Shown here one piece after another: positions 3,644-27,486 of a stretch of DNA of 27,486 nucleotides. Made by a program: the position numbers and the translations under genes. Every line of letters begins with the position of its first letter. The stretch's first letter is position 1. Origin of the DNA: a virus; the IMG/VR virus record IMGVR_UViG_3300027746_000673, positions 1 to 27,486 of that record. One strand, written 5' to 3'. The notes beneath the pieces are model-generated. The model was not told where the DNA came from, did not search any database, and worked only from the letters and a program-made list of their open reading frames with translations.

Positions 3644-3657
3644 TAACTATCTTGAAA

Positions 3658-9060: not shown

Positions 9061-9062
9061 TG
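9058..9062 (+). promoter_or_regulatory. TAATG stop-start overlap
   Basis: The adaptor stop TAA and the nozzle start ATG share one base. An AGGA tetranucleotide a few bases upstream is the only Shine-Dalgarno-like sequence at any gene start in the window. Coupled translation of two tail proteins needed in fixed ratio is likely. Confidence 0.75.
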
Positions 9063-11930
9063 CCGTACACTATCGTAGACAACTTTGGCGCCGGTCTAGA
9101 TAGCCGAAGGCACATTCTTAACTCCAAGCCAGGGACTCTGGCAAAGATTGAAAATGCACACATTACGCGTGGTGGCGAAATTGAAAAGCGTAAAGCCTTT
9201 GTCCAATTAGCGATAGATGGCAACTGGGGTTATAGTTATGGACTAGAATCAACGGCAACAGGTGTTTACGTTTTTTCACCCTTCCCCCAAGTTGGTTCTC
9301 TGCCGGAAGGGTTTAACTTAATGGTCCTTGCGCCTCCAACCAACTCTCAAGGTGTAAGTTTTGGCTTCGACGGATACGACCTAGACGTAAACATAGAAAA
9401 CTATGACTCTCCTGTAATGTCTACTGTCTTTGGTGGCAAAATTTTTGCCATCATGAGACATAGAAACCATTATGGAAATGCACCTTCGCCGTCAGGCAGT
9501 TATTGCACGGCGTATTACGACGGCGTTGCTATCAAGGACTGGTACGAAGGCGTATCGCCTTCAAGTTCTTATTACCATTCTGATATTTGTTTAGATATGG
9601 TTTCCTATTTTTCTACAACCCTTACCCCCGGGTATACGGCAGAAAATGGCTACATGAGCAACTCTCTTAATGCCAACATGGAACCCCCAACGGCCCTTGA
9701 CCCTGCGGTCATGCAAGACATTGATGGTTATGCTCCAGGAGATCAGATTGGCGTTTCTAAAAGCTTTGTTATTACGGGAAAGCCTGGAATTGATTTTACA
9801 GTTGAACCAATCAAGATGGATTCATGGATAGTGGAGGCCATTGATGTGCAAAAGAAAGTTGATTACGTTGCGCCAACTGAGGCCACTGCTACCCTTAACA
9901 TTATTGCTGGAGCAGAAAATGCTGCAAAAATTCACGTTCAAGGAAGAAATTTTCCTGGGGCAGCTGCTTCGATCAGAAGTATACGAGTCAATGCGTCTTC
10001 TGTAACCGCTACGGACGGAACCGATATCCTGAATTGGACAAGTTCAATTGGCCTCCAGCACCTAACTTTTAACCCCACATACACTACTGGATCTAATTAT
10101 GGTAACCTGTTATACAACATAGCTAAGGTAATTAATGACAACACCACAAGCGGCTTGGCCCATGGGTATAAAGCATATTCTCGAAGGCTTTACAAGAATA
10201 CCGGAAATGACACCAATGCAATAGACATTTATGCCCCGGCAGATGAAGGAGAGAACGCTAACGGATGGCTTGTTCAAATAGAGTTTGATACAGATCCTTC
10301 AGGTTTTGGTGACCTGCAGACCCTTTGTGATCCGACAAGCGTAGCGCCAAGTCCTTACAATCCTGGCAAGTTTATTGCCACTATGGGCACTCTTAGCGAA
10401 GGAACTACAAATCAGGTTGTTTCTATCAAAGTTGACGGCGTAGAAGTGCTTGGAAAACCTGTTGATTGGCAAGAGTCAAACGGCTTTACGGCAAGCCTTG
10501 TAAGGACTCAGATGAACGCGTTTACTTCCAGCGTAGAATACGAAACCAAAGTTAACGGATCCTTAATTACTTTTACTGGTGTTGCCGGCCAGGGTGCGCT
10601 AATGAACAACAAGTCAATTAGGGTTGAGACACTTGGAAATGTTATCGTAACTACCTCTGGAACGTTTAATGGTGGGATTAACGGGATCGTCGCTTTGCCT
10701 AAAAAAGTAAGAATTAGATACAACGAGCGTACTCCTTGGGTTTCTCCAACATGGGGGGAAAAATTTGGAGTAACTATTACGGGTAACGATGATCCGATTA
10801 ACCCAATAGTTGTTGGCGCATCAAGAATGGCCGATGTATTTGGAAAAGACCCATCTTTTGTATTTACCTACAAAGCCAAGGTTTATGTCGGATTTGACTC
10901 TGTTGTTTATTTCAGCGCGCTAAATGACTGCACAAAGTGGGACATTTACGACCTTGGCTCTGGATTCATTGACATGTCTAACAACTTTGGAGGCCGCGAA
11001 AGGCTCACCGGATGTGGCGTGTACCAGGACAAGATGGTCTTCTTTACTAGTCGCAGCTCTCAGACTTGGAACATAGATCCGGATCCATCCCTAAGCAGGC
11101 AATACCAGACCATTGAAAACTCGGGATGCGTTGCTGCCGACTCGATTGTTTCCATTAACTCGGTAGATTTGATCTACCTTGGAGACAACGGCTTTAGGTC
11201 ACTCCGCGCAAGAGAAACCACTGACTCGGCGTATGCTAACGATATCGGTTCTGCGATTGATAGCATGGTCATTGATCACATGCAACAACTTGAGACCAAT
11301 AACCCAACCGACTGGTCTGATCCGTTAAGCGCAGCGCAATACAACTGGTTTACCAGAAAGCACTCGTGCAGGGCAGTCGTGGAGCCGGTAGACGGTAGGC
11401 TTATGATGTTCCTTGGGAACGACGTTTATGTTCTTTCGTACTTTTCGGGAGCAAGCATTTCAGCGTGGTCAAAATACCAACTGCCAACATCTGAGCATTG
11501 CACGGGTTTAACCATGTTTAACAACAAGGTTTATATCAGAACTGACAGTGGCGATATGCTCAGTCGCGGGGGTGGTCAATTCTTTGTCTACGGCGGAACA
11601 GACGGCAATACTTACGACAGCTCTGCTGTTGATGTAGAAATGCCGTACTTAGACGCTGCCAAGCCGGCTACGATCAAGGAAGCCAAAGGCGTAGACATGA
11701 CCTGCGAGGGCCAATGGACGGTATACTTGGGCTTTGATCACACGGTTCCAACCGTTAGGGACGAAATCGCAAGGCTCAATCAGTCAACTTTTGCCTTTGG
11801 TCGCATTATGGCCACAGGATACGGGACTCACTTTGGTCCAAAGTTTACCTGCGAAGCCCCAGGAAAGGCCAAGATTGCCAACTTTATCGTTCACTTTGAT
11901 GAACGAAACTCTAAGCACGAAGCCGGATGA
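9060..11930 (+). CDS. Tail nozzle, T7 gp12-like (tail tubular protein B)
   Basis: 956 residues, longer than T7 gp12 (794). The N-terminus contains NFGAGLDSRR...PGTLAKIENAHITRGGEIEKRKAF (residues ~8-46), a hallmark of podovirus nozzle proteins. A long beta-rich middle region (about residues 260-530, with immunoglobulin- or lectin-like alternation of short strands) is probably an insertion that accounts for the extra length. The C-terminal half has beta-propeller-like repeats (for example KVYVGFDSVVYF, DKMVFFTSRSSQTW, NKVYIRTDSGDML). It has ten cysteines, a normal level, unlike the ejection proteins downstream. Role: hexameric tail tube tip that contacts fibres and controls DNA release. Its stop overlaps the next start as ATGA. 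Confidence 0.85.
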   Translation: MPYTIVDNFGAGLDSRRHILNSKPGTLAKIENAHITRGGEIEKRKAFVQLAIDGNWGYSYGLESTATGVYVFSPFPQVGSLPEGFNLMVLAPPTNSQGVSFGFDGYDLDVNIENYDSPVMSTVFGGKIFAIMRHRNHYGNAPSPSGSYCTAYYDGVAIKDWYEGVSPSSSYYHSDICLDMVSYFSTTLTPGYTAENGYMSNSLNANMEPPTALDPAVMQDIDGYAPGDQIGVSKSFVITGKPGIDFTVEPIKMDSWIVEAIDVQKKVDYVAPTEATATLNIIAGAENAAKIHVQGRNFPGAAASIRSIRVNASSVTATDGTDILNWTSSIGLQHLTFNPTYTTGSNYGNLLYNIAKVINDNTTSGLAHGYKAYSRRLYKNTGNDTNAIDIYAPADEGENANGWLVQIEFDTDPSGFGDLQTLCDPTSVAPSPYNPGKFIATMGTLSEGTTNQVVSIKVDGVEVLGKPVDWQESNGFTASLVRTQMNAFTSSVEYETKVNGSLITFTGVAGQGALMNNKSIRVETLGNVIVTTSGTFNGGINGIVALPKKVRIRYNERTPWVSPTWGEKFGVTITGNDDPINPIVVGASRMADVFGKDPSFVFTYKAKVYVGFDSVVYFSALNDCTKWDIYDLGSGFIDMSNNFGGRERLTGCGVYQDKMVFFTSRSSQTWNIDPDPSLSRQYQTIENSGCVAADSIVSINSVDLIYLGDNGFRSLRARETTDSAYANDIGSAIDSMVIDHMQQLETNNPTDWSDPLSAAQYNWFTRKHSCRAVVEPVDGRLMMFLGNDVYVLSYFSGASISAWSKYQLPTSEHCTGLTMFNNKVYIRTDSGDMLSRGGGQFFVYGGTDGNTYDSSAVDVEMPYLDAAKPATIKEAKGVDMTCEGQWTVYLGFDHTVPTVRDEIARLNQSTFAFGRIMATGYGTHFGPKFTCEAPGKAKIANFIVHFDERNSKHEAG
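11927..11930 (+). promoter_or_regulatory. ATGA start-stop overlap
   Basis: The start of the gp13-like gene overlaps the nozzle stop in ATGA, with no Shine-Dalgarno sequence upstream (CACGAAGCCGG). Expression probably depends on ribosomes ending the nozzle gene. Confidence 0.7.
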
Positions 11931-12424: not shown

Positions 12425-13048
12425 ATGTGTTCCGGAGGAGGATCTGACAATTACGCCGCGCAGGCCCGAGCTGACGAAACCGCAAGGCAGGACCGCATCA
12501 AAACGGGAACTGCCGATGTAAACAAGAAGTTTGAAGGCTTTAATGACGCTTTCTACGGACAGCGCCAGCAGGAATACAAGAACTACGCAGAGCCACAACT
12601 TAGGGATCAGCTTAAAGGCGAGTCCTCATCTCTGGCGTTCAACTTGGCTAGGTCTGGACTGACTGACTCTAGCGAGCGCTCGCGCAACGAAGGAGAGCTC
12701 CAAAAGCAATTTAGCGCAGGTAAGGCTGAGATTGCCAACGCTGCCCTAGATCAATCAAATCAAGCCCGACAGAGAACTGAGCAAAACAGGTCTGAACTCC
12801 TTGCACAACTTAACGCTACCGGAGATGCAGCCTCTGTTGGAAGCCAGGCAGTTAATCGCGCTGGGCTTCTAGCTTCCCAGCAATCCTTCTCGCCTATTGG
12901 CCATATGTTTAGCGCAACCACCGGCCTGCTTGGCAACGCTGCCAGGGCTGGATACTACGATAATAACGCACCAGGAATGAACGCCTACACCGGCTTATTC
13001 CGTGGCAACTCAAACAACTCTGGCGCGTCCAGAACCGTAAAGACCTAA
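12425..13048 (+). CDS. Putative internal virion protein (Met-Cys start)
   Basis: 207 residues. It starts MCSGGGSDN, then is largely helical and rich in Gln, Arg, Ala and Asn, with FEGFNDAFYGQRQQEY (around residue 38) and LAFNLARSGLTDSSERSRNEGELQKQF, patterns I associate with virion proteins of metagenomic podoviruses. The C-terminal part (FSPIGHMFSATTGLLGNAARAGYY) is mildly hydrophobic. The only cysteine is Cys2. It lies in the slot between gp13-like and gp14-like genes, so an ejection or internal-core protein is likely. It is not a lipoprotein: there is no signal peptide before the Cys. The start has ACC before ATG. The family name is uncertain. Confidence 0.7.
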   Translation: MCSGGGSDNYAAQARADETARQDRIKTGTADVNKKFEGFNDAFYGQRQQEYKNYAEPQLRDQLKGESSSLAFNLARSGLTDSSERSRNEGELQKQFSAGKAEIANAALDQSNQARQRTEQNRSELLAQLNATGDAASVGSQAVNRAGLLASQQSFSPIGHMFSATTGLLGNAARAGYYDNNAPGMNAYTGLFRGNSNNSGASRTVKT

Positions 13049-13801: not shown

Positions 13802-15919
13802 ATGGCAGATTTCTCATGGGTAGAACCCTCAATGAAGAACCTGGGCAATATGCTCGGGCTCGATCCTGAGGCTAAGGCAAAGGGCGCGGCCCTTCAGCAG
13901 CAGCGCGAGCAATCGGCAGCTGCTACTGACCTTACGAGGGCAAAGCTTGGCCTTGTGCCGAAGCAAGGCGCTGAAATTGATGCTCGCACCGCAGGTTACA
14001 AAGAGAAGACCCGTGGTGAAAAAGACAAAAACGATGCAAATGGTCGTCTTGCTGAAGCCATTGCTGCGGCTACTTTTGTTGATGAAAACGGAGACGTTCA
14101 GGTAGATCCGAATGGAATCGCTGGTATCGTAAAAGAGTTCCCTCATGTAAAGGTCGACCTTGAAAAGTTCGGGAAAGGACTAGCCGAGTTACGCCTTCAA
14201 TCAAAGAAGCGCGGTGGCGGCAATGGCTCCGGACTTCCGCAGCCCGACGCGTCTAAGAAGATTGTAGGACCTCCCCCCGGAGAAATCATGGATGCCCCAG
14301 CACCGGTGCCTGGTCAGCCCATTCAGCTTTCCGGTGGCATGCCTGACTTGACGCTATATTCTTCAATTATGGGCGGAGCGCCGTCTGATCTAGAAACTTC
14401 GCTGCGCCAAAATCAAATTAATAGCATTAAGGCCGGCATAGATGCGCCTGCCAATGGTGCCACACAGCCCGCCCCCGATGGCGTTGCTGGCATGCTTTCC
14501 GGTCGCGCAAAGAACGATATTCCTGACGCACAACTCCAGCGCCGATTAGCGCAGACGGGTAAGGTTCTTAGCATCAATCAAGCCGTAAGCCCCGAACAGG
14601 CTGCTGACGTCCGAACGCAGAATACCGATAACACCATTAGGGTCAACGCAGCCAAGCCAGTGACCCTTGGCGCTGGGCAGCAATCTTTTAACCAACAAGG
14701 AGAAAAGCTGGCTGAAAATACCCTGCCTCGAACGCTCGCAGGCGGGGCAAGCATGGTAGATAAAGACGGCAATGTAGTTACAACTGCACCAAAAGTTGGA
14801 GGAAAGGGCTCAAAAGGCACTGGCTCCGGCGGAGAATACGGAGACCCGACTACCCTGGACGTCAACCGTTCTAACGAATGGATTGCTCGCGCCAAGGAAG
14901 TTGTATCTGAATGGGCAGGGTCTACCTCTGGAAATCCGATCAGCCCCGGCGTAGCATCTCAGCTGGCTGCCCACGCTTACCAGATGGAGTTCGGTGAAGG
15001 CATGCCGACCAAAAACGCAGATGCCGTTATGCGTTCGTATCTTGCCAAGTCTGGTTACAAGTTTGACAACACGGTAGGCAATTGGAATCCGTTTAACTCA
15101 AATAAGACAGAAGTCTATACACAGGATGGCAAAAATGTAACGGGTGGCTCTGATAGCCCCGTGCAACCTATTGTTCCCGCCCTTCAAGGCGGCGACGTAC
15201 AGCGCGGAAAAGTAAATGGTACATCGTTGAAGGTTAACCCCAAAGACCCAAGAATGGGTCTAATGCCGTCTCCTGACGGTAGCAGCCCCGATAAGCCTCA
15301 CGTCCTGGGCGTAGCCGGATACCCATCTGATCCTGCGGATGCAAGAATTTTGCCTGGGACTATTTTTGCTGCCTTTAACTCTGAAGACAACAAATACTAT
15401 CTTTACCAGAAACAACCAGACGGAAGAAACGTAACCATTGATGATGCTACAAGTCGTGGACAAATTGGTCTTCACATGGCCGACCTTCAGGAAGCAGGCT
15501 TTACCGTGTTTGGTAAGGACATGCCAAAGGACAAGCGCTTTAGGGTTAATGGCGTCGAAAAATCTTATAAACCCTACGAAGCAGTAGACGTCAGGCATCT
15601 TCTTGCGCCAGGCCTAGGGTTAAGAATTTCTGAAATGGGATGGGTAAATAGAATCGCATCGTTCAGTGAGTTCGACAAAATGCTAAGATACATTGCAAAG
15701 ACGGAAACGGGCGAGGAAAATGAATGGCGTGCGTTGAACGCCAGCCAAACAGTCAAGGCCTACTACGTCGAAAAGGACCCGGATAAGAAAATGGACATTC
15801 TTCAGAATTGGCTCAACAAAAGGGTTGCTCCGGTGCGAGAGTTTGCTCAGAAAGAAGAGGAAGCGAGAGCGGCCCAAAAGACCGCGACTTTAGCATCCAC
15901 TCTATCTGATACCAAATGA
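13802..15919 (+). CDS. Putative ejection protein in the gp15 position
   Basis: 705 residues from the ATG at 13802; an upstream in-frame ATG at 13775 lies inside the preceding gene and is unlikely. I recognise no enzymatic motif. The N-terminal ~130 residues are helical and charged, then a Gly/Pro-rich flexible region (GGGNGSGLPQPD, DAPAPVPGQPIQLSGGMPD), a Gln/Asn/Ala-rich middle, a Gly/Ser linker (KGSKGTGSGGEYGD), and a folded-looking C-terminal half with aromatic residues, ending in a charged helix (EFAQKEEEARAAQ). It has no cysteine at all. It sits where T7 encodes gp15, the periplasmic tube protein, and overlaps the giant gene by four bases. The role as ejection protein is inferred from position and composition. 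Confidence 0.68.
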   Translation: MADFSWVEPSMKNLGNMLGLDPEAKAKGAALQQQREQSAAATDLTRAKLGLVPKQGAEIDARTAGYKEKTRGEKDKNDANGRLAEAIAAATFVDENGDVQVDPNGIAGIVKEFPHVKVDLEKFGKGLAELRLQSKKRGGGNGSGLPQPDASKKIVGPPPGEIMDAPAPVPGQPIQLSGGMPDLTLYSSIMGGAPSDLETSLRQNQINSIKAGIDAPANGATQPAPDGVAGMLSGRAKNDIPDAQLQRRLAQTGKVLSINQAVSPEQAADVRTQNTDNTIRVNAAKPVTLGAGQQSFNQQGEKLAENTLPRTLAGGASMVDKDGNVVTTAPKVGGKGSKGTGSGGEYGDPTTLDVNRSNEWIARAKEVVSEWAGSTSGNPISPGVASQLAAHAYQMEFGEGMPTKNADAVMRSYLAKSGYKFDNTVGNWNPFNSNKTEVYTQDGKNVTGGSDSPVQPIVPALQGGDVQRGKVNGTSLKVNPKDPRMGLMPSPDGSSPDKPHVLGVAGYPSDPADARILPGTIFAAFNSEDNKYYLYQKQPDGRNVTIDDATSRGQIGLHMADLQEAGFTVFGKDMPKDKRFRVNGVEKSYKPYEAVDVRHLLAPGLGLRISEMGWVNRIASFSEFDKMLRYIAKTETGEENEWRALNASQTVKAYYVEKDPDKKMDILQNWLNKRVAPVREFAQKEEEARAAQKTATLASTLSDTK
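15916..15919 (+). promoter_or_regulatory. ATGA overlap at start of giant gene
   Basis: The giant gene begins with ATG at 15916, overlapping the TGA stop of the preceding gene. No Shine-Dalgarno sequence precedes it (CTATCTGATACCAA), so translation is probably coupled to the 705-residue protein, tying their amounts together. Confidence 0.75.
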
Positions 15920-18900
15920 GCTCCATTCCTGATCGCGAAATTGTAGATAACGAAAACCTAAGGCCGATTCAGTCTGGCATTGGGTCTATCGTTGAAAACA
16001 AACGAATCCTTGCAGCTTCCGATGTACCTGGCGCCGGTTATGCCGTTGCTGCCGGAACAATGCGAAGCGCCATTCCAAGCTTTGCTGGTTGGCTTGGTAG
16101 CCGTGGCGGCGCCTTAATCGGGGCAACAGCGGGAACCGCTGTGGCGCCGGGGGGAGGTACTGCTGTTGGAGGATTTGTAGGGTCTACGGCTGGTGGCGCG
16201 ACGTTAAGCTCGCTTGCTCAATGGGCGCAGGAAAAGGTAGCCCCAGTTGGGGCAAAAGAAATGTTTGCTATGCACAAATATCCCGTGCTGACGCAGGTTG
16301 GCGGTTATCTTTCTGCAACCCCTTACATGCGCGGATCAACTTTAAAAGAATGGTCAGAAAATCCTCTTAAACAGGCCCAAAACGCAGCAGGCGAATTTGG
16401 TGGAGAATTTGGCGGTTCGCTGGCTATCCACCTTGCAACCGGTCAAAGGCTAAAGAATTTTGATGTAAAGGGTGAAGCCATTGGCGCCGTCATTGAGTCG
16501 TTTATTCAGAATGAAGAAACCGCCTTGGGTCGCAGAATTACGTCTGGCCTAGGACTTGACGGTCCAGGCCATGCGCCAACCATTACCAGACCAGGTCAAG
16601 TCCCCGTCTCGCAGCGCGAACTTGTCGCGGAAGCTACCGCTGCGCCCGTCGCTCCTCCAGTTGCTGCTCCTGTAGCCACGCCAGCTGCACCCGTTGCGCC
16701 GGTTGCAACGACCCCTGGAGTTCCAGCTCCTACCGTTACCCCTGGAGCCCCTGTCGCACCGGCAGGAACGGTTCCGCCGGCAGCAGGAACGGTTCAGCCA
16801 GCTACCACAACGGTTCCTCCAACCACCCAGACCGGGACGATTGATACGCGCAACATCCCCGTCCAACAGGAAGAATTGATGCCCGTTCAGCCAAGGCCAA
16901 CAGATAGCCAGGATGGACAGAAGATGTGGGATGAGCTTTACGGTGAAACCCATAAACCCAATGGAAGGCCGATTACGTTTTCTGAAGCAAGGCCTGCGGC
17001 GCACACTGATCAGCGGAGTGATCCTGCTTATAATCCAGCGTTTGAAACCCCAGACAGGGGTACGGGCAATATGCCCGTCACAAAGCGACCAAGAATTATT
17101 CCTGAATCCATCGCTAGTTACAATTTAGCCGATTTTCTTCACAGCGATACGCCAGAAATGGCTATGAGGAATCTCAATGAGGAGGCTGCTAGAAACCCAA
17201 AAGTTGCTGAGTATATAAAGAACAACAAGGTAGCCATCGATAAGGCAATTCAGGATCATATTGCGTGGAATAAGAAGCATAAAGATACTCACTATCCATC
17301 AGGAACCCCACAGCCTTCTCAGGTAGAAGCTGATTTGATTAAGAAATATGACCCTTCTCAAAATCCCGAATACGCTGCTGACTTGAAGCGACGACAGGAC
17401 GAGTGGGATCTGAAACACGGAAATGACTTTCAGCACACTGGATGGCCAAAGGACAACAGAACTGCCACGGCAAGGTTCCGTGAGGGGCAGACCCTTGGAA
17501 GAAAGAATTTTTACAAGAAGATGGTCGGTCCTGCAGGTAAGCGCTCAGTTGCATGGTACAGCCAAGATAGGGATATCATCCTTCCAGGAACCGTCGGCGG
17601 TCGCCGGGTCTACCGAGTAGGACTGCAAGGAACAAGCAGCATGATGGGGGACATGGTGGACATGACGAACCCTAACATGATCACGGAAAACCTTGATGAA
17701 GCCGTAGCATTTATCGAAAAACACCGGCAGGAACAGGCTGCAACCCAAGCAGAACGGGATGCGCGAGAGCAGGAAGCGCGCGAGTCTGACAAGAACAAGC
17801 AGTCTCAGACCGAGGCAAAGGACACCAAGGACGCTCCGGAGGCAAAAGATGAGCCCAAAGCTCCCGTAGCTCCCGTAGCTCCCGTAGCTCCCGTAGCTCC
17901 GGCAGCTGACACGGCTCCGGCCGGAGAGATCAACGCCACTGCTATTGCGGCGCTGTTTGAGAAGGTGCCAGAATACAAGTGGGCAAGCCCGTCCGGCGAC
18001 GCCTACGCCAAGTTCCGAATGGAAGTCATGAAGGCGCTTGGCGCCGAAGGGATTACCAAGACCAACTCTGGCGTTAACAACTACCGAACCCTGCTAATCA
18101 ACAAGCTGGGCATTGACCCCAAGCAGACGATCGCGGCAATCGACAAGGATATCGTAAAGTTCCTGAAGAAGCTCCTTAAAGGTAGCTCCGGAAGCCTGGA
18201 CAATGACGACTCCGCCCAGGGCGACACGCCAACTACTACGACCCGCAAGGACAAGAAGCCCGCCGGTGCAGCGCCTGCCGGCGCTGCGACCATCACCAAG
18301 CCGATCACTGAAGATGAGAAGAAGCAGCTCAAGGAGCTAAACATCGAACAGATCAGGCAGGACAATGAAGACGCCGAAGACGATTCCGATCCAAACGAGA
18401 AGTTTCATGCCATCTTTGACGATATTGCTGAACGCAATGGATACCTTAACAAAGCGGGAATGAGGAAGTACCTTGAATCCGTTTATGGCAAGGACGAGTT
18501 TGACGCCATGGATGCAAGCGAAGCGCTGAAAGATTGGGATGCTCTAACAAAGCCGGTGGTGTGGGACAAAAAGACAACCCCGATCGCAGGAACAAGTGCT
18601 TCCGTTGCCGTAATTCAAAATAACGAAAAATTTAAAGGTGGAGACTACGGCGCTGGCTGGAGCTCTGCTATGGTGGTCTTTGGAAAAGACGGAGAAGTAA
18701 TCAGCATCCATCAGTTTAGGGCCTGGAGGGGCAAACCTAGCGGAACGCCGGAATTCGGAGGCCGTAAGCTTCTCATGGACCAAGATGGCGCAAGCAAACA
18801 AATGGGAATTTCGGAGCCAAAGGGATGGGATTACGTAGTCAGCCAATACGGCAAAGAAGAAGCATCAAAAATTGCAGAAGGCGCCATTAAGGCTTTTATT

Positions 18901-21900
18901 GATGCATCCAAAAAATACTCAAAGACATTAGACTCAAAGAACGAAAAATCGTCTAATGCGTTAATATTTCAGAGAACAAATAACGGAAATACTGATATTG
19001 CAAGGGGGGAAATTGATACCGACCCGCTAAATCTTGCACTAGGATTAAACGGAAAAGAGTCAGACAGGGAATTTTTTGAAGCCCTTGAAAAGAAGTTTGG
19101 ATTAAAATTTATAACGGCTAACAGGGGGTACGCGGGATATGGAAGTGAAGAAAGGTACAACAGGAACAATGAGTTTAAGTTTAGCCTTGGGATTGCTGGA
19201 GGAGTGGTCCACAAGCCCGACGTTGATCCTGACTATAACCTTAATAATGACGAGTGGAGGGCTGCCGCAGATTATGAAGCTCTAAAAGAACAGGTAGAAA
19301 GCCCGGAACCAGAAGCCGTAAAGCTTCGCGCAAAGATCGAAACCCTCAATCATGATGGTGCTGCATACAAAAAGGCAAATCAAAGGCTCAGTGAGCTAGA
19401 TCGAGAGCACGCAGAAAAGATTTTTGAAAAATACAAGATTTTTAGGCCAGGAGACAAAAGGTATGTACCCGGGGTGTTAGTCCCGAATTACTACCCTGAA
19501 CAAAAAGATCTCTCTCGCAACGAGGAAAGACTCAAGTCCTCAATTCCTTCATACGGCACTATTCACCGCAACGAAGAGCAGCTAAAAGGTTCATCAAAGA
19601 CCCTTGATGAAGTCTTTGAGGTGATGGATGTTGTTGCAAAAAAGATTGAAGAAATTAAAGTAAGAATTTCAAAGGGTAACTCAAAAGACCTTGATGTTGA
19701 CCTAAAAGAGCACGCAAGACTTGTAGAAAACCTCAGACTTGCAAGCGAAAGGGCCATTCCCGAGCTTTTGAGGCTCCAGAAGGAAACTGATGAAGCCGTA
19801 GAAAAAGCAAGTGAGGGCCAAGACAAAGCCGGGCATGTGTTCCCAATTGAAGGAACCGACAAGACGATCTCATTCAACACAGACGCAAAAGAAGGACACA
19901 AGTTCAACACGCAGTCCATTGAAGCCGTCAAAAAGCTAATAGAGCTACAGGACAAAGCAGTTAAAATAGGCGAGCAAAAGGGAGGAAATAAGACAAAAGA
20001 GTATGATGACGCATGGAACGCGTTTCATGCTTTTGAGGCCGTGTATAAGCTCATGAACTTGGCCGAAAGAACCGAAACAATCGGATCTATCAAAGGTGCA
20101 AACGGTAAAGAAATTGCCACATTGTTAATTGTTTCTGGCGCCGAAAAAGCCATGCCGTCTGCAGATCAACTTGCCCAGGCAGAAATTGGAGAAACAGAAT
20201 CCCATGAGCTTTCCGAGCTATTTGGCGGAATGGTGACAAACGTAAAGCTTGGAATCCCGGCTGGATCGGACAAAAAGACCATCATTGGAATTATCAATCA
20301 AGTAAAGCATAGGCTTATGATGATGAGAGAGACTGCCACCGATGACCCCAGGTTAAAGAACATAGAAGTAGATCACGAGCATGATCTTCTTTACAATAAT
20401 TCCTACGTTTTTGACCTTAGCTCGCTTGATCCTGCGTCTGCAAAAATTGCCTTAACAGAGCTTAAAGAAAATTTCGATGGAGACACGATTGAGGACTTCA
20501 ACATTGATGAAGAATTAATTAAGACGCAGAAGAAGCTTACGAAAGACAGTGGCCTTGTAATTTTCTTTGACTCCATGGTAAGTCGAAATGAAGAAGCTTT
20601 ACAGGTTTACGACAAAAAAACCCAAGCGTTAAGAGATGTCAATTTTGACGACGCCGTGCAGGCCGCACTTGAGGCTCTGGCCGAAAATAGCGGAATTAAG
20701 GAGTTTGGAAAAGGAGAAAGAACTAAACTTTGGAGAAAACTTGATAAACTTATTGAAGCAATGGATGAGTGGAACGATTCTTCCGTAGGGAAAATTTTAA
20801 AATTTATAGAGGAAAACAAGGGCCCGCTTGATTACGGTCGAACCAAAAGGCTCTATCAGGAAATGCAGGACTTTAAGTCCGGCAAGATGTTTGGAGACGC
20901 CAAGCCCACCGCTGCCACCAAGCCCACCACGCCGGCTGCCGCCGAGGCAAAGCCTGCCACGCCGGCCATGGACAGCGTTACCGCCATGGCCCAGGAGAAG
21001 CCTAATGACTCCGCTTCGCTCAAGGCGGCTAGGACCAAGCTCCGCGCCGTTATAGAGAAGATTGGCGCCGACAGCCAGCAGGCTGCGTCCATGGCCAAAA
21101 ACATCGCTCGCGCGGAAGAGAAGCAAGCCAGCTTTAACAAGTCCTCCGAGGGCATCGTTAAGCCATACACTGACACCCCTGAGCCGGACACCGTGACTCA
21201 GGCAAGGGCTCGAATGGCCGCAGGACTCAAGAAAGGGCAGGTCCTGAGCGCCACCTACAGAAAAGCGCAAGAGATCGTAGACCAATACGAATCAGAACAC
21301 GACCTCTACACGGGTACCGTAACCGAAGAAGGTATCAAGCGAGTGTCTAACAAGGTGCTGGAAGACTTCCTTCAGCGAGCCCAGGACGCGGTCAACGAGG
21401 CCGGCGGAATGGACAAGGCTGGGGAAACACTGAAGTCTGAGTTAGGCGTAGCGTTCAGCATGGCGCAGGAAGAGTATCAGCGCCGCGAAATGGAAGCCGG
21501 TCGAAAGGATGAGTACGGAGACCTGCTGGCAGACATTGCAAGCATTGTTGGTACATCCAATGGTAGCATTGCCATCCCAACTCTCCCCAAGGCGCTGAAG
21601 TCTAGCTACTCCGAAATGTCGGAGATGTTCGACTCCGGGTTTACCACCGGGAAGAACAGCATCCTTAGGCAGCCAATGCACGGCATTGATGTGCAGCGCT
21701 ATCTTACCGACAAGGAATACAAGAAGCAGGTCAATAACACGGCTGAAGCCATGTTGGAACAGCTTGCTGAAAGACTGTCCGAAATAGGATGGGCTCAGTT
21801 TGATCCTAGCAACTTCTCATCTAGCGAGCTGATGGACGCTCTTTACGAGGCCGGTATGGGGCGTGCCTTAGTGCCGAAAGACGGAGTCATGGGCGCAAGC

Positions 21901-24900
21901 TGGAAGGGCGACGTTGGTAATGTCGCAAGCGTAGCCAACACGGACACGGCAACCTTGCCCCAGGATCTGTTTAAGGCTACTCAGAAGCCAAAGCAGCTAG
22001 GCGCCAAGAAGTCTAACGACCTGATCGATGAAGCGGACACCTTTAGCCTATCTGGCGAAAAGTCCGCACCGGCGCCCACGGGGACTACAACGACAACGGA
22101 CGACAAGACGCAAGACCTTGCGCCCGAAACCCAAGAGCCAGCCTACATCGCCCAGGCTCGCACCCAGCTCTCAAAGCTTGAGAAAGCCGGCGCAAGCCCT
22201 GCGCAGCAGCGCACGCTTCGCGACACCATTGAACAGTACGAAGCCACCCTAAAGCAACCCCAGCAAGAGGAGGCCACGGAAACCAAGCCCGCCACGGTAG
22301 CAGCTACCCAGGAGCAGATTGATCAGTTCGAGGAAGCCGCCGGCCGAGCCGACGACACCATGGACGACCTTGAAAGCAGCGCCGGCGGACAGGCCAAGGC
22401 GGACAAAGCTATCAATGGCAAGAAGGGCCTGATCGCCATGGCAAGAGATGCCATCGAGAAGTCTCCATTCAGCGAAAACGCAGAGCAGAACACGGCTTCC
22501 CATCAGGACACTGCAAGCATGCTGCGCGCAGCATCAACCCTGGCTAACGAGATTGCCGACTCTAATGAAGAGGCGGCCAACAACATTGAAGACATGGGTC
22601 GCGAGGATCAGTTCTCCGATAGGCAGGACATGATTGACCAGCTACGCGAGCTTGCGGAAGTCCTAGATCAGCTTGCCGACATAAACGAAGCAGCAGCCGG
22701 AAACCAAAGCGAAAGCGAACAGCCTTCGGTTAAAATGACTAGAAAAGACGTTGATCGCGAGATCCAGCGCCTGCGCGATGAGCAGAAGAAAGAAATGGAT
22801 GCCGTCCTAGACAGCAACATGGGTTATCGCGAAACAAACGACGCTCTCACTGCGCTTAGTAAAAAGTACGAGCCTCAGTTTAAGAAGCTTACGGCTGAAC
22901 TAAAGAAGCTAACCAAAAACGACCCAGGCGCAATGAGCGTTGAGGGCTCTATCAATCGTGACGGCGAATTTGCAAAGTTTGTGGTGGGGCTCAAGAGAAA
23001 GCTCGATGCTGGCACTATTACGCAAGCAGAGTACGACGAGGCATACGCCAGGGTTCAGAAGGCAGGCCAAGTCAAGCCGGTCACGGATGATGCTGATTCC
23101 TCCAAGAACACGGAAGTCCCGCAAGAGGGCGGTAAGACGACGATCAAGGGCAGCAACCTTGCCATGCCTCTTCCGGATTCAATTACTAACCAGGACAAAA
23201 AGGATGCAGTAGTGGTATCGGTGATGACTGAAATTAGGAACCAGATCAGAAATAGCCAGAACGGGACCGGGACACGCGTTGACTTTGGAGACCTTAAAAA
23301 AATAAAGGGCGCTGAAGCCTTCGTGTTTGAAAAGATCAAAGCGTTCTTGGACAGCAATCCCTCCGCAAGCTATCTTGAGATTGTTGCCAATCTTTATCAG
23401 GTTTCCCTGCCCAATTCAACCAAGTCACTGAAGGGCAAGCTTGCTGACGCCCAGGCCCTTAACGCCATTCTGATGGACGCGTACAGGACTGCCGTAGCAA
23501 ACCTAAGGCTGTCTCAGATCGCAAATGGCGTTCCGGAGTCTGAGGCCATTTCTGGCGACATTAGTAGCAACCAAAGTGATGCTATATCTGGATACCATGT
23601 AATGAATGAAATCGGCTTATTTGAGGCGATTCAAAGGTTTTTAAACACTGCGGACGCGCCTTATGCACCCGGAGAGGTGGACAGCAAAAAGGGTAAGCCA
23701 AAAAATGACGCAGATGAACTTCTTGGAAACACTGCGTTTGGCATGATGCGCCTGTTCAACGACACTGTAAACAAGCTCATCAGAACGGGCAAATACACGA
23801 CAACCACCAGCCTTCTTGACGCAGTGATTAAAGACCTGGAGGCGCAGGTCAAAGGCGGCCTTAACACCAAGATTGAAAACGAAGTCCTGACCAAGATTAA
23901 GGCTCATGTAAATAGCCAAAAGGGCGATCAGCCATTCTCCAGATTTGACCGTCAGGCGGACGACAACGACAAAGCGCGCGAGCTAGATACGCGCGTGGCT
24001 CGCAATTCCCAGAATCGACAGGGCGACCCGGATGCACGCAAGGGCTTCACGGGCATGATTTCCAGAGCCCTGGACGAGCTGCGCCTGCGTGGCGAGATCA
24101 CTGCCAAGGAGGCAGAAGGCCTCACGCGCATCATGAATTACATCGGTTCGCAGTTCTTTTCCGGAGAGAAAATGTCGATCAAGAACGACAGCCAGCGCGG
24201 TTACTACGGCATGTATTCCTTCGGTGACAAGGTCCTGACCATCTTCCGAGACGCCATGCGCGACGGACGCTTCGAGTATACGGCAGCACATGAAATCGCC
24301 CACTTGCTTACCAAGTACCTCCCAGACAAGGACCGAAAGGACCTGATCAACGAGTGGAGGACGGCACGCATGAAGTTCCTGAAGGAGAACCCTGGCATTG
24401 CTGCCATCCTGAAAGACCCGTATGCCGACTTCAACTCCCTCCACTTTAGCTCTCTGGATATTCAGAAAGCTGAGTCCATCCAGCCCGGAGTCACCAAGTC
24501 CTTCGTCAAGAAGGAGCTTCAAATAGGCCTAAGAGGCAAAACCAAGACCGTCTATGTCGTGGCAGCACACGAAGGCGTGTACCAAATCTTCAACGCGGAC
24601 GAATACTTCGCCGAGAACTTTGTGCGCGTCGTGATGAAGCGCCTAAACAGCGACCCTGCCTATACCGGCAACCCGAATACCTGGCGCGAGAAGCTGGCTT
24701 CCCTTTGGGATATGATCAAGACGGGCTTCCGTCAGATGTTCGGCAAGGACGTGACTGCCAGAATTCTGGCAGACTTTGCCAAAGGTAAGATTAGCCCTGA
24801 CATGAAGGGCAATTACGGACTTACCGACCTGCATAACGCGATGCCGTCTAAAGACGGATCTGCTGACCTTTCAACCTGGAATACCAGACATGGCCAAAAT

Positions 24901-27486
24901 GCCATGACCGTTACCGAGCAAAGCGAAAAGAATCTTTTGGCTAATGTAAAAAAGTCGTTGGACAAGAGTATGACCATAAAAGATGCCATACACATGGTAC
25001 TTCGCGGGGTAACGGGCGGACAGTCAGAGCTAGTGAAGCTTCTGACGTCCAAGTATAACCGGGATTACGAAATTCAATTCTCAAGCAAATCCTATGAAGA
25101 ACTCTATGGTTCCCACTCAAAGACTTCAGAAGGTAGGCCTATCAACGCAGCGCGCGTAAGGGGTGCTCACGTTGCCAGCGGACAGTATATCAGAATTTTT
25201 CCGGAAGACATTTTGGCCAGCGCCAAGAAGTATAACATCAGCTTTGCGGACGCGCTCGCGTTTGTCATCACGCACGAAGTTATCCATTCCTACACGCTAG
25301 ATGTTATTAAGACGAACTCTATAATGCGTAACCAGGCTACTGACCTTGTAAAAGAGATCCGTGATGAGCTTGGCCTTACAATGACGGAGGCTCAAATCGA
25401 CAAGCGCTTCTACGGTCTTTCTTCACCGGCAGAACTGCTTACCGAGTGCCTTATCGACAAGGAGCTTAGAGATATTGCAAACTCGATCAAGACAAAGACA
25501 AAGAGACTGTCAGAACTAAGTGGAGATACGCTAATGGAAAAGATTATCTCTCTGTTCCATAACGCGCTTGAATCCATCGGGATCAAGGTAAACAGGGATA
25601 GCGTGCTCGAAAGAGTAACGGAGATGATCGCAGTAGGAAGAGAAGAAGCTTCTGCCATCAAAAAGGGTACGCAGTATTATGGATTCTATACGCTCAGAGA
25701 ACAGATGCGCGCCAAGGGCAACTTCAAGTCTACATGGGACTACGCATACTCACCTGACAGCCCAACCGGTGTGCTCAAAAGGACAGCTGTATCGCGAGAC
25801 AAGACCGCGACTGCAAAACAGGTGGCAAAAGACATGGCTAAGGCGCAAAGGGCAAGAGAAGAAGGACATGCAGAGCTCGCAGACATTTACGAACGAAATG
25901 CAGCAGAAAAGCAGAGGAGTCACGATGAGTTTGCCGCGCGCATCGAGGAGGAGCTAAACGGCAACACCACGCCAATGCTCGAACAGGCCATCCCTGACCT
26001 CAAGAAGATTGACGGCAACGACACCCCAAGCGCACGCGAAACGCTGCTTGGCATCCGCGACGACGTTATGCCGTCCATCGGTCCTGCCCACCGCCCACCG
26101 GTCAGAAAGAACGAAGAGAAGAACATCGCCCAAATCGCATGGGACGTTATCTCCGGACGCTACTTCTCAGGCCTGAGCTCCAAGGCTCACCAGAACGCCG
26201 ACCGCCACGATTACAGCGAGACGGTCAAGCAGGTGGCCAACATGATCCACTCCCGCCCAGGAGTAAACTCTAACACCTCCGAGCGAGACATACCTACGGC
26301 CATGATGGTCAGCCGTATCAAGTTTCAGAACAAGTTTAACACTATTGTTGACCCACTGAAGGGCATGCTTTCCGGGTTTAGAGACAGCAGCGCCGGCACG
26401 GCCAAGGAGCAGCGCGAAGTAGTATACCGTGCGCTGCACGACATGATCCGTGGCGAAAAGCCAATCACCAAGGGCAAGCTTGGCGAGGTTGCAACCAACC
26501 TTAAAAAGCTTTTTGAGGAGCTCAGGGAGTACCGCGTTGGCGCCGGCGAACAACTTGGCGATGTTAAGGATTATTTCCCGGCAGTCTACGACTCTCCGCG
26601 CATCTCCCAGGAGCGTGGCGCCTTCACCAAGGACGCGACAACGGCATACTACATGACTCTGTCCAAGCTTGAGGCCGGGGAGCTCGCCAAAGAGCTTGAG
26701 GTTTCCAAGAAGGAAGTTGAAGCTGGCGTAACCAAGGACGGCAAGCCGATCGACGAACTGATCAAGGAGAAGTCCGTAGCCAAAGCAATGGAGCTGTTCA
26801 ACATGCACCTTCGCGGTATGGGCTCATCCGAATTTGACAGCATCTTCGGCGGCAACTCCGGAAACGACAGCGAAAACACTAACTTGAAGCGCGTGTTCAA
26901 AGGCGAGGCTCAGAGCATCATGTCCAAGTGGCAGGTCGCTGACCCGTTCCGCGTGGTAACGGCCTACATCACGTCCTCCGTGAAGAAGGCTGAAATCGTA
27001 AGAAAGTTTGGCGCCGAAGGCGAAATCTGGAAGCAGTATTCCGAACAGATGGAAGCCGATGGCGTTCCGTATGATACTATCGCAGAAATGCGCGAGCTCG
27101 TGCGTGTTGCCTCTGGCTACGGCATCCCGCCCAAGGGCAAGGCTGCCCAGACCTACGTTGACTCGATCACTATGATGACTGCGGCTTCCGCAATGGGTCG
27201 CGGCTTCCTGAATAACCTGGTTGAGCCTGTCACCATGGGCATCCGCGCCGGCAATCCCCTCATGGCCGCCCGAGGATTGGTCGAAACGTCGATCAGGTTT
27301 GTGCGAGAAATCGCCAACCTTTCGCCGGCGCTAAAGGCCAAATTGGGTGAAACGTTCTGGTCTGAATACGGCAAGGAGATCGGCACAATCCATAGCAGCA
27401 TCGAAGATGCATGGATGGCCACTCACTCCATGGACCTTGACGCCGACCGCGCAGACCCCCGCTTCCGCTGGATTACCAATCGCATC
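15916..27486 (+). CDS. Giant modular phage protein with two metallopeptidase domains (3' partial)
   Basis: The frame starting at 15916 has no stop up to the last base: 3857 codons visible (over 400 kDa), and the gene continues beyond the window. Order of parts by residue: Gly-zipper hydrophobic segment 56-100; helical region to ~240; Pro/Ala/Val/Thr linker 241-309; charged region; linkers 640-672 and 756-795; an AT-rich block of unknown fold 876-1650 with helical coiled-coil-like parts; linker 1661-1685; helical region; linker near 2049-2075; helical charged region; first metallopeptidase (HEIAH 2792-2796); second metallopeptidase (HEVIH 3120-3124); and a C-terminal helical part containing VKDYFPAVYDSPRI, similar in style to phage large polyvalent proteins. 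Only one cysteine (3178). Its place after gp13/gp14/gp15-like genes is that of T7 gp16, suggesting a virion protein injected with DNA. No transglycosylase motif was seen. Function is inferred. Confidence 0.85.
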   Translation, partial: MSSIPDREIVDNENLRPIQSGIGSIVENKRILAASDVPGAGYAVAAGTMRSAIPSFAGWLGSRGGALIGATAGTAVAPGGGTAVGGFVGSTAGGATLSSLAQWAQEKVAPVGAKEMFAMHKYPVLTQVGGYLSATPYMRGSTLKEWSENPLKQAQNAAGEFGGEFGGSLAIHLATGQRLKNFDVKGEAIGAVIESFIQNEETALGRRITSGLGLDGPGHAPTITRPGQVPVSQRELVAEATAAPVAPPVAAPVATPAAPVAPVATTPGVPAPTVTPGAPVAPAGTVPPAAGTVQPATTTVPPTTQTGTIDTRNIPVQQEELMPVQPRPTDSQDGQKMWDELYGETHKPNGRPITFSEARPAAHTDQRSDPAYNPAFETPDRGTGNMPVTKRPRIIPESIASYNLADFLHSDTPEMAMRNLNEEAARNPKVAEYIKNNKVAIDKAIQDHIAWNKKHKDTHYPSGTPQPSQVEADLIKKYDPSQNPEYAADLKRRQDEWDLKHGNDFQHTGWPKDNRTATARFREGQTLGRKNFYKKMVGPAGKRSVAWYSQDRDIILPGTVGGRRVYRVGLQGTSSMMGDMVDMTNPNMITENLDEAVAFIEKHRQEQAATQAERDAREQEARESDKNKQSQTEAKDTKDAPEAKDEPKAPVAPVAPVAPVAPAADTAPAGEINATAIAALFEKVPEYKWASPSGDAYAKFRMEVMKALGAEGITKTNSGVNNYRTLLINKLGIDPKQTIAAIDKDIVKFLKKLLKGSSGSLDNDDSAQGDTPTTTTRKDKKPAGAAPAGAATITKPITEDEKKQLKELNIEQIRQDNEDAEDDSDPNEKFHAIFDDIAERNGYLNKAGMRKYLESVYGKDEFDAMDASEALKDWDALTKPVVWDKKTTPIAGTSASVAVIQNNEKFKGGDYGAGWSSAMVVFGKDGEVISIHQFRAWRGKPSGTPEFGGRKLLMDQDGASKQMGISEPKGWDYVVSQYGKEEASKIAEGAIKAFIDASKKYSKTLDSKNEKSSNALIFQRTNNGNTDIARGEIDTDPLNLALGLNGKESDREFFEALEKKFGLKFITANRGYAGYGSEERYNRNNEFKFSLGIAGGVVHKPDVDPDYNLNNDEWRAAADYEALKEQVESPEPEAVKLRAKIETLNHDGAAYKKANQRLSELDREHAEKIFEKYKIFRPGDKRYVPGVLVPNYYPEQKDLSRNEERLKSSIPSYGTIHRNEEQLKGSSKTLDEVFEVMDVVAKKIEEIKVRISKGNSKDLDVDLKEHARLVENLRLASERAIPELLRLQKETDEAVEKASEGQDKAGHVFPIEGTDKTISFNTDAKEGHKFNTQSIEAVKKLIELQDKAVKIGEQKGGNKTKEYDDAWNAFHAFEAVYKLMNLAERTETIGSIKGANGKEIATLLIVSGAEKAMPSADQLAQAEIGETESHELSELFGGMVTNVKLGIPAGSDKKTIIGIINQVKHRLMMMRETATDDPRLKNIEVDHEHDLLYNNSYVFDLSSLDPASAKIALTELKENFDGDTIEDFNIDEELIKTQKKLTKDSGLVIFFDSMVSRNEEALQVYDKKTQALRDVNFDDAVQAALEALAENSGIKEFGKGERTKLWRKLDKLIEAMDEWNDSSVGKILKFIEENKGPLDYGRTKRLYQEMQDFKSGKMFGDAKPTAATKPTTPAAAEAKPATPAMDSVTAMAQEKPNDSASLKAARTKLRAVIEKIGADSQQAASMAKNIARAEEKQASFNKSSEGIVKPYTDTPEPDTVTQARARMAAGLKKGQVLSATYRKAQEIVDQYESEHDLYTGTVTEEGIKRVSNKVLEDFLQRAQDAVNEAGGMDKAGETLKSELGVAFSMAQEEYQRREMEAGRKDEYGDLLADIASIVGTSNGSIAIPTLPKALKSSYSEMSEMFDSGFTTGKNSILRQPMHGIDVQRYLTDKEYKKQVNNTAEAMLEQLAERLSEIGWAQFDPSNFSSSELMDALYEAGMGRALVPKDGVMGASWKGDVGNVASVANTDTATLPQDLFKATQKPKQLGAKKSNDLIDEADTFSLSGEKSAPAPTGTTTTTDDKTQDLAPETQEPAYIAQARTQLSKLEKAGASPAQQRTLRDTIEQYEATLKQPQQEEATETKPATVAATQEQIDQFEEAAGRADDTMDDLESSAGGQAKADKAINGKKGLIAMARDAIEKSPFSENAEQNTASHQDTASMLRAASTLANEIADSNEEAANNIEDMGREDQFSDRQDMIDQLRELAEVLDQLADINEAAAGNQSESEQPSVKMTRKDVDREIQRLRDEQKKEMDAVLDSNMGYRETNDALTALSKKYEPQFKKLTAELKKLTKNDPGAMSVEGSINRDGEFAKFVVGLKRKLDAGTITQAEYDEAYARVQKAGQVKPVTDDADSSKNTEVPQEGGKTTIKGSNLAMPLPDSITNQDKKDAVVVSVMTEIRNQIRNSQNGTGTRVDFGDLKKIKGAEAFVFEKIKAFLDSNPSASYLEIVANLYQVSLPNSTKSLKGKLADAQALNAILMDAYRTAVANLRLSQIANGVPESEAISGDISSNQSDAISGYHVMNEIGLFEAIQRFLNTADAPYAPGEVDSKKGKPKNDADELLGNTAFGMMRLFNDTVNKLIRTGKYTTTTSLLDAVIKDLEAQVKGGLNTKIENEVLTKIKAHVNSQKGDQPFSRFDRQADDNDKARELDTRVARNSQNRQGDPDARKGFTGMISRALDELRLRGEITAKEAEGLTRIMNYIGSQFFSGEKMSIKNDSQRGYYGMYSFGDKVLTIFRDAMRDGRFEYTAAHEIAHLLTKYLPDKDRKDLINEWRTARMKFLKENPGIAAILKDPYADFNSLHFSSLDIQKAESIQPGVTKSFVKKELQIGLRGKTKTVYVVAAHEGVYQIFNADEYFAENFVRVVMKRLNSDPAYTGNPNTWREKLASLWDMIKTGFRQMFGKDVTARILADFAKGKISPDMKGNYGLTDLHNAMPSKDGSADLSTWNTRHGQNAMTVTEQSEKNLLANVKKSLDKSMTIKDAIHMVLRGVTGGQSELVKLLTSKYNRDYEIQFSSKSYEELYGSHSKTSEGRPINAARVRGAHVASGQYIRIFPEDILASAKKYNISFADALAFVITHEVIHSYTLDVIKTNSIMRNQATDLVKEIRDELGLTMTEAQIDKRFYGLSSPAELLTECLIDKELRDIANSIKTKTKRLSELSGDTLMEKIISLFHNALESIGIKVNRDSVLERVTEMIAVGREEASAIKKGTQYYGFYTLREQMRAKGNFKSTWDYAYSPDSPTGVLKRTAVSRDKTATAKQVAKDMAKAQRAREEGHAELADIYERNAAEKQRSHDEFAARIEEELNGNTTPMLEQAIPDLKKIDGNDTPSARETLLGIRDDVMPSIGPAHRPPVRKNEEKNIAQIAWDVISGRYFSGLSSKAHQNADRHDYSETVKQVANMIHSRPGVNSNTSERDIPTAMMVSRIKFQNKFNTIVDPLKGMLSGFRDSSAGTAKEQREVVYRALHDMIRGEKPITKGKLGEVATNLKKLFEELREYRVGAGEQLGDVKDYFPAVYDSPRISQERGAFTKDATTAYYMTLSKLEAGELAKELEVSKKEVEAGVTKDGKPIDELIKEKSVAKAMELFNMHLRGMGSSEFDSIFGGNSGNDSENTNLKRVFKGEAQSIMSKWQVADPFRVVTAYITSSVKKAEIVRKFGAEGEIWKQYSEQMEADGVPYDTIAEMRELVRVASGYGIPPKGKAAQTYVDSITMMTAASAMGRGFLNNLVEPVTMGIRAGNPLMAARGLVETSIRFVREIANLSPALKAKLGETFWSEYGKEIGTIHSSIEDAWMATHSMDLDADRADPRFRWITNRI
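16108..16194 (+). other. Glycine-zipper hydrophobic segment of giant protein
   Basis: Residues 65-93 have glycines at 65, 69, 73 and again at 81, 85, 89, 93, that is two runs of GxxxGxxxG in an Ala/Thr/Val background (GALIGATAGTAV, then GTAVGGFVGSTAGG). Such zippers pack transmembrane helices. In an ejected protein this could be the part that enters the host membrane. No signal peptide is present. Confidence 0.7.
16636..16842 (+). other. Pro/Ala/Val/Thr-rich linker 1 of giant protein
   Basis: Residues 241-309 are almost only Pro, Ala, Val, Thr and Gly (ATAAPVAPPVAAPVATPAAP and onwards to VPPTTQTGT). This is a disordered or extended spacer between the N-terminal membrane-like region and the next domain. 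It contains no charged residue except near its ends. Confidence 0.85.
17860..17895 (+). repeat. Four tandem copies of a 9-base unit
   Basis: GCTCCCGTA is repeated four times without error and encodes APVAPVAPVAPV inside the second Pro/Ala linker (17833-17932, residues 640-672). Perfect copies suggest recent slippage; copy number could vary between related phages without disturbing the frame. Confidence 0.92.
18181..18300 (+). other. Linker 3 of giant protein
   Basis: Residues 756-795 are rich in Gly, Ser, Asp, Thr, Lys and Ala (GSSGSLDNDDSAQGDTPTTT, then RKDKKPAGAAPAGAA). This is a probable disordered spacer that follows a small helical domain at about 676-755. Confidence 0.7.
18541..20860 (+). 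other. AT-rich block inside giant gene
   Basis: Sample 60-base stretches here are about 32-33% GC (18961-19020, 20701-20760), against 45% at 18121-18180 and 63% at 22321-22380. Codon choice changes with it: AGA/AGG for Arg, AAA for Lys, TTA for Leu. The encoded residues (about 876-1649) begin with a beta-rich part (AGWSSAMVVFGKDGEVISIH) and continue as charged helices. The block ends next to linker 4 (20896-20970). I do not recognise the fold. The pattern suggests acquisition from another genome. Confidence 0.72.
20896..20970 (+). other. Linker 4 of giant protein
   Basis: Residues 1661-1685 (GDAKPTAATKPTTPAAAEAK and PATPA) form a Lys/Pro/Thr/Ala-rich spacer at the exact junction where the sequence returns from AT-rich to GC-rich. 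This marks a domain boundary. Confidence 0.78.
22060..22140 (+). other. Linker 5 of giant protein
   Basis: Residues 2049-2075 (EKSAPAPTGTTTTTDDKTQD and LAPETQEPA) are Thr/Pro/Asp-rich and probably disordered. A further short Glu/Thr/Pro-rich stretch lies at 22261-22310. The regions on either side are charged helices. Confidence 0.7.
24001..24789 (+). other. First zinc-metallopeptidase domain of giant protein (HEIAH)
   Basis: AAHEIAHLLTKYL has the HExxH motif at 24289-24303 (His2792, Glu2793, His2796), in a GC-rich block (58% GC at 24241-24300). A helix with DEYFAENF follows at 24598-24621; Glu2896 or Glu2900 is a good candidate for the third zinc ligand, as in gluzincin-type enzymes. Before the motif is MYSFGDKVLTIFRDAMRDGR, the usual strand leading to the catalytic helix. 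The spacing of about 100 residues to the third ligand is long. An intact active site is likely; the substrate is unknown. Confidence 0.75.
24901..25690 (+). other. Second zinc-metallopeptidase domain of giant protein (HEVIH)
   Basis: FVITHEVIHSYTLDV has HExxH at 25273-25287 (His3120, Glu3121, His3124), about 325 residues after the first. SSPAELLTECLID at 25420-25458 supplies Glu3173 or Glu3177 as third ligand, in the same arrangement as metallopeptidases in phage large polyvalent proteins, where HE-xHA-T is followed by a PAEF-AEA-type helix. The strand INAARVRGAHVASGQYIRIF precedes it. The block is lower in GC (38-40% in sample lines) than the first domain. The only cysteine of the protein (3178) is here. 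Confidence 0.78.

Follow-up and report, generated by a model that had tools for sequence, protein, structure and literature searches.

The structural module and its terminal giant gene

The window, that is, the whole 27,486-bp stretch of DNA analysed here, is a linear IMG/VR virus record with a podovirus structural module whose last gene is cut by the contig end. The features delineated in it are as follows.

2..2053, + strand: fibre-like protein, 5' end off the contig (Pfam Collagen 2.8e-6, Fibritin_C 3.5e-4)
2078..3643, + strand: terminase large subunit (Pfam Terminase_6N 4.7e-17, Terminase_6C)
3607..5781, + strand: portal protein, P22-like (Pfam P22_portal 5.1e-9)
5808..6878, + strand: scaffold position, assigned by position only (between portal and capsid protein), no family match
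6893..7963, + strand: major capsid protein (phrog_9953 major head protein 1.6e-34)
8362..9060, + strand: head-tail adaptor, SU10-like (Pfam SU10_adaptor 4.8e-9)
9060..11930, + strand: tail nozzle / tubular tail protein B (tblastn 7e-60 to Rhizobium phage RHph_N65)
11927..12412, + strand: small internal virion protein, gp13-like position (phrog_308 internal virion protein 1.1e-16)
12425..13048, + strand: structural-block gene by position, no function assigned, 1 Cys in 207 aa
13054..13800, + strand: gp14 position in the ejection block, by position, with a weak phrog_4359 match (E 0.08), 1 Cys in 248 aa
13775..15919, + strand: putative ejection protein in the gp15 position, by position, 0 Cys in 714 aa
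15916..27486, + strand: probable giant gp16-class ejection protein, 3857 aa seen and ~4200 expected, 1 Cys
15916..16632, + strand: glycine-zipper-rich N-terminal segment of the giant, aa 1-239, shared with the closest relative only
16576..16875, + strand: Pro/Ala/Thr-rich linker, ~aa 221-320, P+A+T over half in 60-residue windows
23938..24810, + strand: zincin-like peptidase module, aa 2675-2965, HEIAH at 24289-24303 and then a conserved FAE motif
25273..25287, + strand: second HExxH motif, HEVIH, aa 3120, then SPAELLTE, kept in contigs G001 and L003 only
26119..27486, + strand: constant C-terminal region of gp16 class, aa 3402-3857, cut by the contig end, common to all relatives found

The cut gene at 2-2053 encodes collagen repeats followed by a fibritin-like trimerisation region, which suggests a trimeric fibre. 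The major capsid protein is 96% identical to that of the closest relative. The nozzle protein also matched the 'packaged DNA stabilization protein' of Microcystis phage Mae-Yong1326-1 (tblastn 3e-42). It is 956 aa long, whereas its counterparts have 465 aa (Mae-Yong1326-1) and 587 aa (RHph_N65), and it carries a long insertion past about residue 150. The RHph_N65 nozzle (L004:3251-5014) is labelled 6-phosphogluconate dehydrogenase, likely a misannotation, and the Mae-Yong1326-1 counterpart of the small internal virion protein is annotated as an N-acetyltransferase. The likely start of the gp15-position gene is the ATG at 13802, giving 705 aa.

Both Mae-Yong1326-1 and RHph_N65 have a gene order similar to that of the window. 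The giant is the last gene of the structural module and directly follows the gp15-position gene, a place that matches those of its equivalents in Mae-Yong1326-1, Bruynoghevirus and T7. The lineage is LUZ24/KPP25-like within the podoviruses and not T7-like, although its genes are arranged as in T7. Searched against bacterial genomes, the capsid profile picked up five distant relatives and the L003 giant gave no match.

The giant frame begins with an ATG at 15916 that overlaps the stop of the preceding gene (ATGA) and runs for 3857 codons (424 kDa) without a stop up to the contig end. A colinear homologue is present on G001 (IMGVR_UViG_3300032333_000234, 48,302 bp), where it spans 4209 codons with a stop (462.5 kDa) and occupies 12.6 of the 48.3 kb, and a third contig, L003, holds the matching C-terminal 1253 codons with the stop present. 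As the colinear G001 homologue stops at 4209 codons, the window giant is expected to be about 4200 aa in full length, with about 350 residues missing. The window and G001 giants share 56.5% identity over 3774 aligned codons (54-57% over the full length), with dN/dS of 0.04-0.24 in those 250-codon windows in which synonymous change is unsaturated. The uninterrupted frame reported by the earlier, sequence-only reading of this DNA is thus confirmed, its estimate of at least three times the length of T7 gp16 (1318 aa) is borne out at about 3.2-fold, and the T7-like order that it proposed upstream of the giant (nozzle, gp13-like, gp14-like, gp15 position) agrees with the family matches and with the relatives.

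Relatives with a constant C-terminal region and variable fronts

The capsid-protein profile retrieved 442 related viral contigs, and more than 20 of the contigs examined encode a giant or its C-terminal part. When measured at the matching position on the longer capsid-related contigs, the giants were 1741, 2310, 2613, 2768, 2807, 2899, 3321, 3587, 3637, 3690, 4005, 4198, 4209, 4222, 4274 and 4528 aa long, and the equivalent gene is 2441 aa in Mae-Yong1326-1 and 1056 aa in Bruynoghevirus. The approximately 25 relatives of 1056-4528 aa share a constant C-terminal part, ~770 residues long, in which close members are 45-58% identical and those at the family edge ~18-25%; in front of it they differ. 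The region before the constant part is variable, and some of its modules recur in different members and at different places. RadC/JAB domains occurred in 7 of the 16 scanned giant sequences and in two further giants, GNAT and ParB-like matches were present in other relatives, and LPD1 was detected in the Mae-Yong1326-1 giant.

Some members depart from this layout. In G007 and G008 (L093:4482-13681 and L094:3223-12797) a pair of adjacent genes (1342+1702 and 1313+1856 aa) takes the place of the single giant, with gaps of ~65 bases between them and the break well ahead of the conserved C-terminal part. G024 (L145/L146, contig ~29512-42765) encodes at the matching position a 4418-aa giant with 9 cysteines. 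The C-terminal part of this protein is no more than a marginal match to the family profile and possibly represents a different vehicle. UniProt lists fragments of such giants from uncultured phages under the name 'Large polyvalent protein associated domain-containing protein', hence sequences of this type are not unseen.

Homology and predicted structure of the C-terminal region

The window giant gave no family above cut-off in Pfam, PHROGs and NCBIfam, and when searched in two pieces by tblastn against 50,697 phage records it had no match at 1e-5. The link to cultured phages surfaced only through the complete C-terminus of L003. The C-terminus matched Mae-Yong1326-1 from both G001 (E 5e-12) and L003 (tblastn 2e-8), and that of L003 also matched structural proteins of KPP25 and phiR18 (tblastn 4e-7 to 9e-7). 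Mae-Yong1326-1 in turn links it to the 1056-aa gene of Bruynoghevirus (E 5e-11), a link that was recovered by profile-profile comparison (E 1.1e-7, 94%). Profile-profile comparison of the window clade with a single Bruynoghevirus sequence was weak (E 0.1) and required intermediates, and when the six distant members were all aligned, conservation was nowhere high enough to scan with. The equivalent of this Bruynoghevirus gene in LUZ24 is gp50 (1055 aa), which is listed as a phage particle protein (PMC3890496); nine proteins were found in LUZ24 virions by mass spectrometry (PMC3517423).

We modelled the C-terminal region with AlphaFold in its G001 version (814 aa, 29 sequences in the alignment), and the model was all-helical with pLDDT 78 and pTM 0.79. 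In BFVD the model matched the structural protein of KPP25 (E 1e-16) and, from several T7-like phages, internal virion proteins C/D (~1e-8 to 1e-10). The best of 995 PDB chains realigned to it was T7 gp16 (Z 9.6), matched over 293 residues within T7 residues 510-1209, followed by a PhiM1 ejectosome protein (Z 8.2) and an E1004 core protein (Z 8.0), and the first unrelated chain after these three podovirus core proteins had a Z of 5.6. For helical proteins, a Z below ~13 is modest. The C-terminal profile had no match among PDB sequences, and Foldseek of the model against the PDB gave nothing significant (best E 0.03). Because of this lack of a significant Foldseek match and the modest Z, the predicted structural resemblance to T7 gp16 is taken as supportive but short of decisive. 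The stretch of T7 gp16 that aligned to the model overlaps a region for which DNA binding in the host cytoplasm has been proposed (PMC8954989). Two membrane-like hydropathy peaks at ~140-190 and 35-75 residues from the end, together with a basic tail, were present in G001 and most members, and were read in relatives only as the window ends before them.

Cysteine depletion in the giants and in ejection proteins

The window giant has 1 cysteine in 3857 residues and the preceding gene none in 714; in relatives, too, the gene immediately ahead of the giant has almost no cysteine. In the window the proteins for terminase, portal, capsid and nozzle contain 0.8-1.2% cysteine. Across the family the giants hold 24 cysteines in 66,638 residues, and the other upstream ORFs 84 in 16,310 (p 1e-38). 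In five classical podoviruses (T7, N4, P22 and phiKMV, whose ejection proteins are established, and LUZ24) the ejection proteins hold 1 in 11,966 against 135 in 18,795 for other virion and packaging proteins (p 1e-27). Both p-values overstate independence because the choice of ORFs was mechanical and related sequences entered the same counts. The ejection set comprised T7 gp14-16, N4 gp50-52, P22 gp7/20/16, phiKMV gp35-37 and, by position, LUZ24 gp50-52. Tryptophan and histidine were not reduced in the family giants. No report of cysteine absence in ejection proteins was found in the open-access papers searched, and one may exist.

The N-terminal cargo of the family (14 cysteines in 51,284 residues, 0.027%) is as poor in cysteine as the C-terminal part (0.072%), which suggests, on composition, that the cargo travels too. 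P1 DarB is a polyvalent protein that is packaged in the head of a contractile-tailed phage and does not pass through an ejectosome, and it has 9 cysteines in 2255 residues; polyvalent proteins in general are therefore not marked by a lack of cysteine. Most simply read, the entire chain together with its cargo would pass the oxidising periplasm un- or partly folded. Taken together, the homology chain, the structure match and the cysteine depletion support the assignment of the constant C-terminal part as a gp16-class domain, and they likewise support the gp16 position, last in the ejection block, that the sequence-only reading had given to the giant.

The N-terminal part and its putative peptidase module

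The glycine-zipper-rich segment at aa 1-239 is 58.7% identical to G001 aa 1-242, with four of its five GxxxGxxxG motifs within aa 61-93 and one at 159. The candidate enzyme domains of the window giant are two HExxH regions, one of them in a conserved module, and no other activity was recognised. The zincin-like module at aa 2675-2965 is also encoded in G015, G017, G021, L118, L119 and L134, with identities of 41% to G015 and 44-46% to L118, L134 and L119. Zincins have a conserved glutamate motif downstream of HExxH, and here the HExxH and a downstream E were kept in all eight members spanning them. Its best Pfam match was Peptidase_M78 (E 0.09, below cut-off). The peptidase region gave a poor model (pTM 0.36) whose sole match was a coiled coil, hence no peptidase family is claimed for the module. 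For such peptidases of polyvalent proteins, a role in processing the protein ahead of its delivery or afterwards has been proposed, and the region of N4 virion RNA polymerase (vRNAP) with such a peptidase is needed for encapsidation (PMC5512222).

A transglycosylase domain gave no family match in the window giant or G001, and a diverged one is possible. The Mae-Yong1326-1 giant (L005:18409-25734) is labelled peptidoglycan transglycosylase without a matching domain (no transglycosylase family match at E up to 1), likely a misannotation.

The proposal that the giant resembles large polyvalent proteins held in part. The profile search against LPD families suggested with it gave no Pfam LPD domain in the window giant or G001, and the peptidase match of the window giant stayed below threshold. 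What stands are the two HExxH motifs and the relatives with RadC/JAB, GNAT and LPD1, which are typical of the class.

Proposed function and alternative readings

We consider it likely that the giant is a gp16-class ejection protein of a LUZ24/KPP25-like podovirus with more than 3,000 cargo residues placed in front. The cargo is best read as being of polyvalent type and as including a putative zincin-like peptidase module. The sequence comparisons establish the gene and its position, a conserved C-terminal domain that resembles gp16, a variable N-terminus and a severe lack of cysteine over the entire chain. From homology, position and composition we infer packaging and ejection of the giant; its threading and all activities of its cargo are proposals. 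The protein would be made late and packaged in the head as the third, innermost ejection protein (T7 gp16 class), and at infection it would thread through the nozzle, either together with the smaller ejection proteins or behind them. The C-terminal part of T7 gp16 inserts at the inner membrane and helps to move DNA, and the helical C-terminal region of the giant may do the same. The destination of the N-terminal part, which includes one or more zincin-like peptidase modules, would be the periplasm or cytoplasm; there it may cleave itself or proteins of the host and protect the incoming DNA.

Packaging could instead be confined to the C-terminal gp16-class part, the N-terminal part being cleaved off in the producing cell to act in assembly, perhaps with the zincin module itself as the cutter. 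P1 DdrB is processed before packaging and such peptidases have been proposed to act in autoprocessing (PMC5512222), the peptidase module of the giant lies shortly ahead of the conserved part, and the gene is naturally split in G007 and G008. Yet the N-terminal cargo is at least as cysteine-poor as the C-terminal part, a depletion unneeded in the reducing cytoplasm, and N4 vRNAP is packaged uncut (PMC5512222); we regard this cleavage as unlikely. It is very improbable that the ejected giant serves mainly transcription or replication as N4 vRNAP does, with a polymerase domain too diverged to be seen: the size is similar, and the lack of cysteine and the place as last ejection gene are as in N4, whose gp50 gave a weak entry in the structure list (residues 3218-3500, Z 3.8), but neither the window giant nor its closest homologue had a polymerase match in Pfam, PHROGs or NCBIfam, and the N-terminal part varies from relative to relative, as a conserved enzyme would not.

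The giant of the window phage is known from genes alone, which would fit a cytoplasmic, non-virion polyvalent protein that follows the structural genes by chance. The C-terminal homology to LUZ24 and KPP25 particle proteins, the gp16-like model, the fixed gene position and a cysteine depletion in common with proven ejection proteins argue against such a protein, and we hold it to be extremely improbable. An assembly artefact fusing several genes has a negligible chance: the giant frame does run off a metagenomic contig, but a full-length colinear homologue with a stop lies on a separate contig, giants of 1741-4528 aa occur on more than 10 further contigs, and purifying selection acts along the whole length. 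Misassembly of separate genes, an objection that had been raised together with the original claim, is refuted by these independent contigs. Judged from such comparisons, the giant gene is real and neither a chance frame nor a chimera.

Implications for delivery by podoviruses

With the ejected giant as the preferred reading, the published size range of gp16-like proteins, 609 to 1337 aa in a 2022 review (PMC8954989), would be extended more than 3-fold, up to 4528 aa, and a vehicle-plus-cargo design would be present in a widespread group of uncultured phages. By analogy, N4 vRNAP (3500 aa, 383 kDa, 4 +/- 1 copies), which is packaged and ejected and for which unfolding for ejection has been proposed (PMC12633501), offers a precedent for size and delivery, so that a virion protein this large would not be unprecedented.

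More broadly, podovirus ejection proteins might form a modular delivery system in which a constant gp16-class C-terminal vehicle carries exchangeable, cysteine-free cargo of several thousand residues, a view to which we give about even chances. If it is true, cysteine would be kept out so that the whole chain can pass tail and periplasm, and its absence would be a general mark of ejected proteins in uncultured phages; the signature, if widely valid, would offer a simple test for them. Two questions thereby become testable: what set of proteins a podovirus delivers into its host as infection begins, and in what way a chain of 460-500 kDa passes a narrow tail.

Comparison with known systems

The giant resembles T7 gp16 and LUZ24 gp50 as the last gene of the ejection block, with a related helical C-terminal region and almost no cysteine, and most giant relatives also have the hydropathy peaks near the C-terminus and the basic tail in common with T7 gp16. 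It differs from both proteins in being 3 to 4 times longer, with N-terminal 3,000 residues that are unrelated, and from T7 gp16 in that the transglycosylase was not found. This domain is not universal, being present in T7 and absent in P22-like gp16-class members (PMC8954989).

Like the giant, the virion RNA polymerase gp50 of N4 (Schitoviridae) is very large, is the third ejection protein and has no cysteine, whereas it carries an RNA polymerase, no sequence relation was found between the two, and its C-terminal end gives only a weak structural echo. Large polyvalent proteins (Iyer et al. 2017) are similarly long and multi-domain, are encoded beside virion genes and contain peptidase-like modules; the window giant, in contrast, is without an LPD match and has its cargo fused to a gp16-class ejection domain. 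The Mae-Yong1326-1 giant (UUJ74515.1, 2441 aa) is shorter and carries LPD1, but it has the same gene order, the C-terminal domain, two HExxH motifs and no cysteine.
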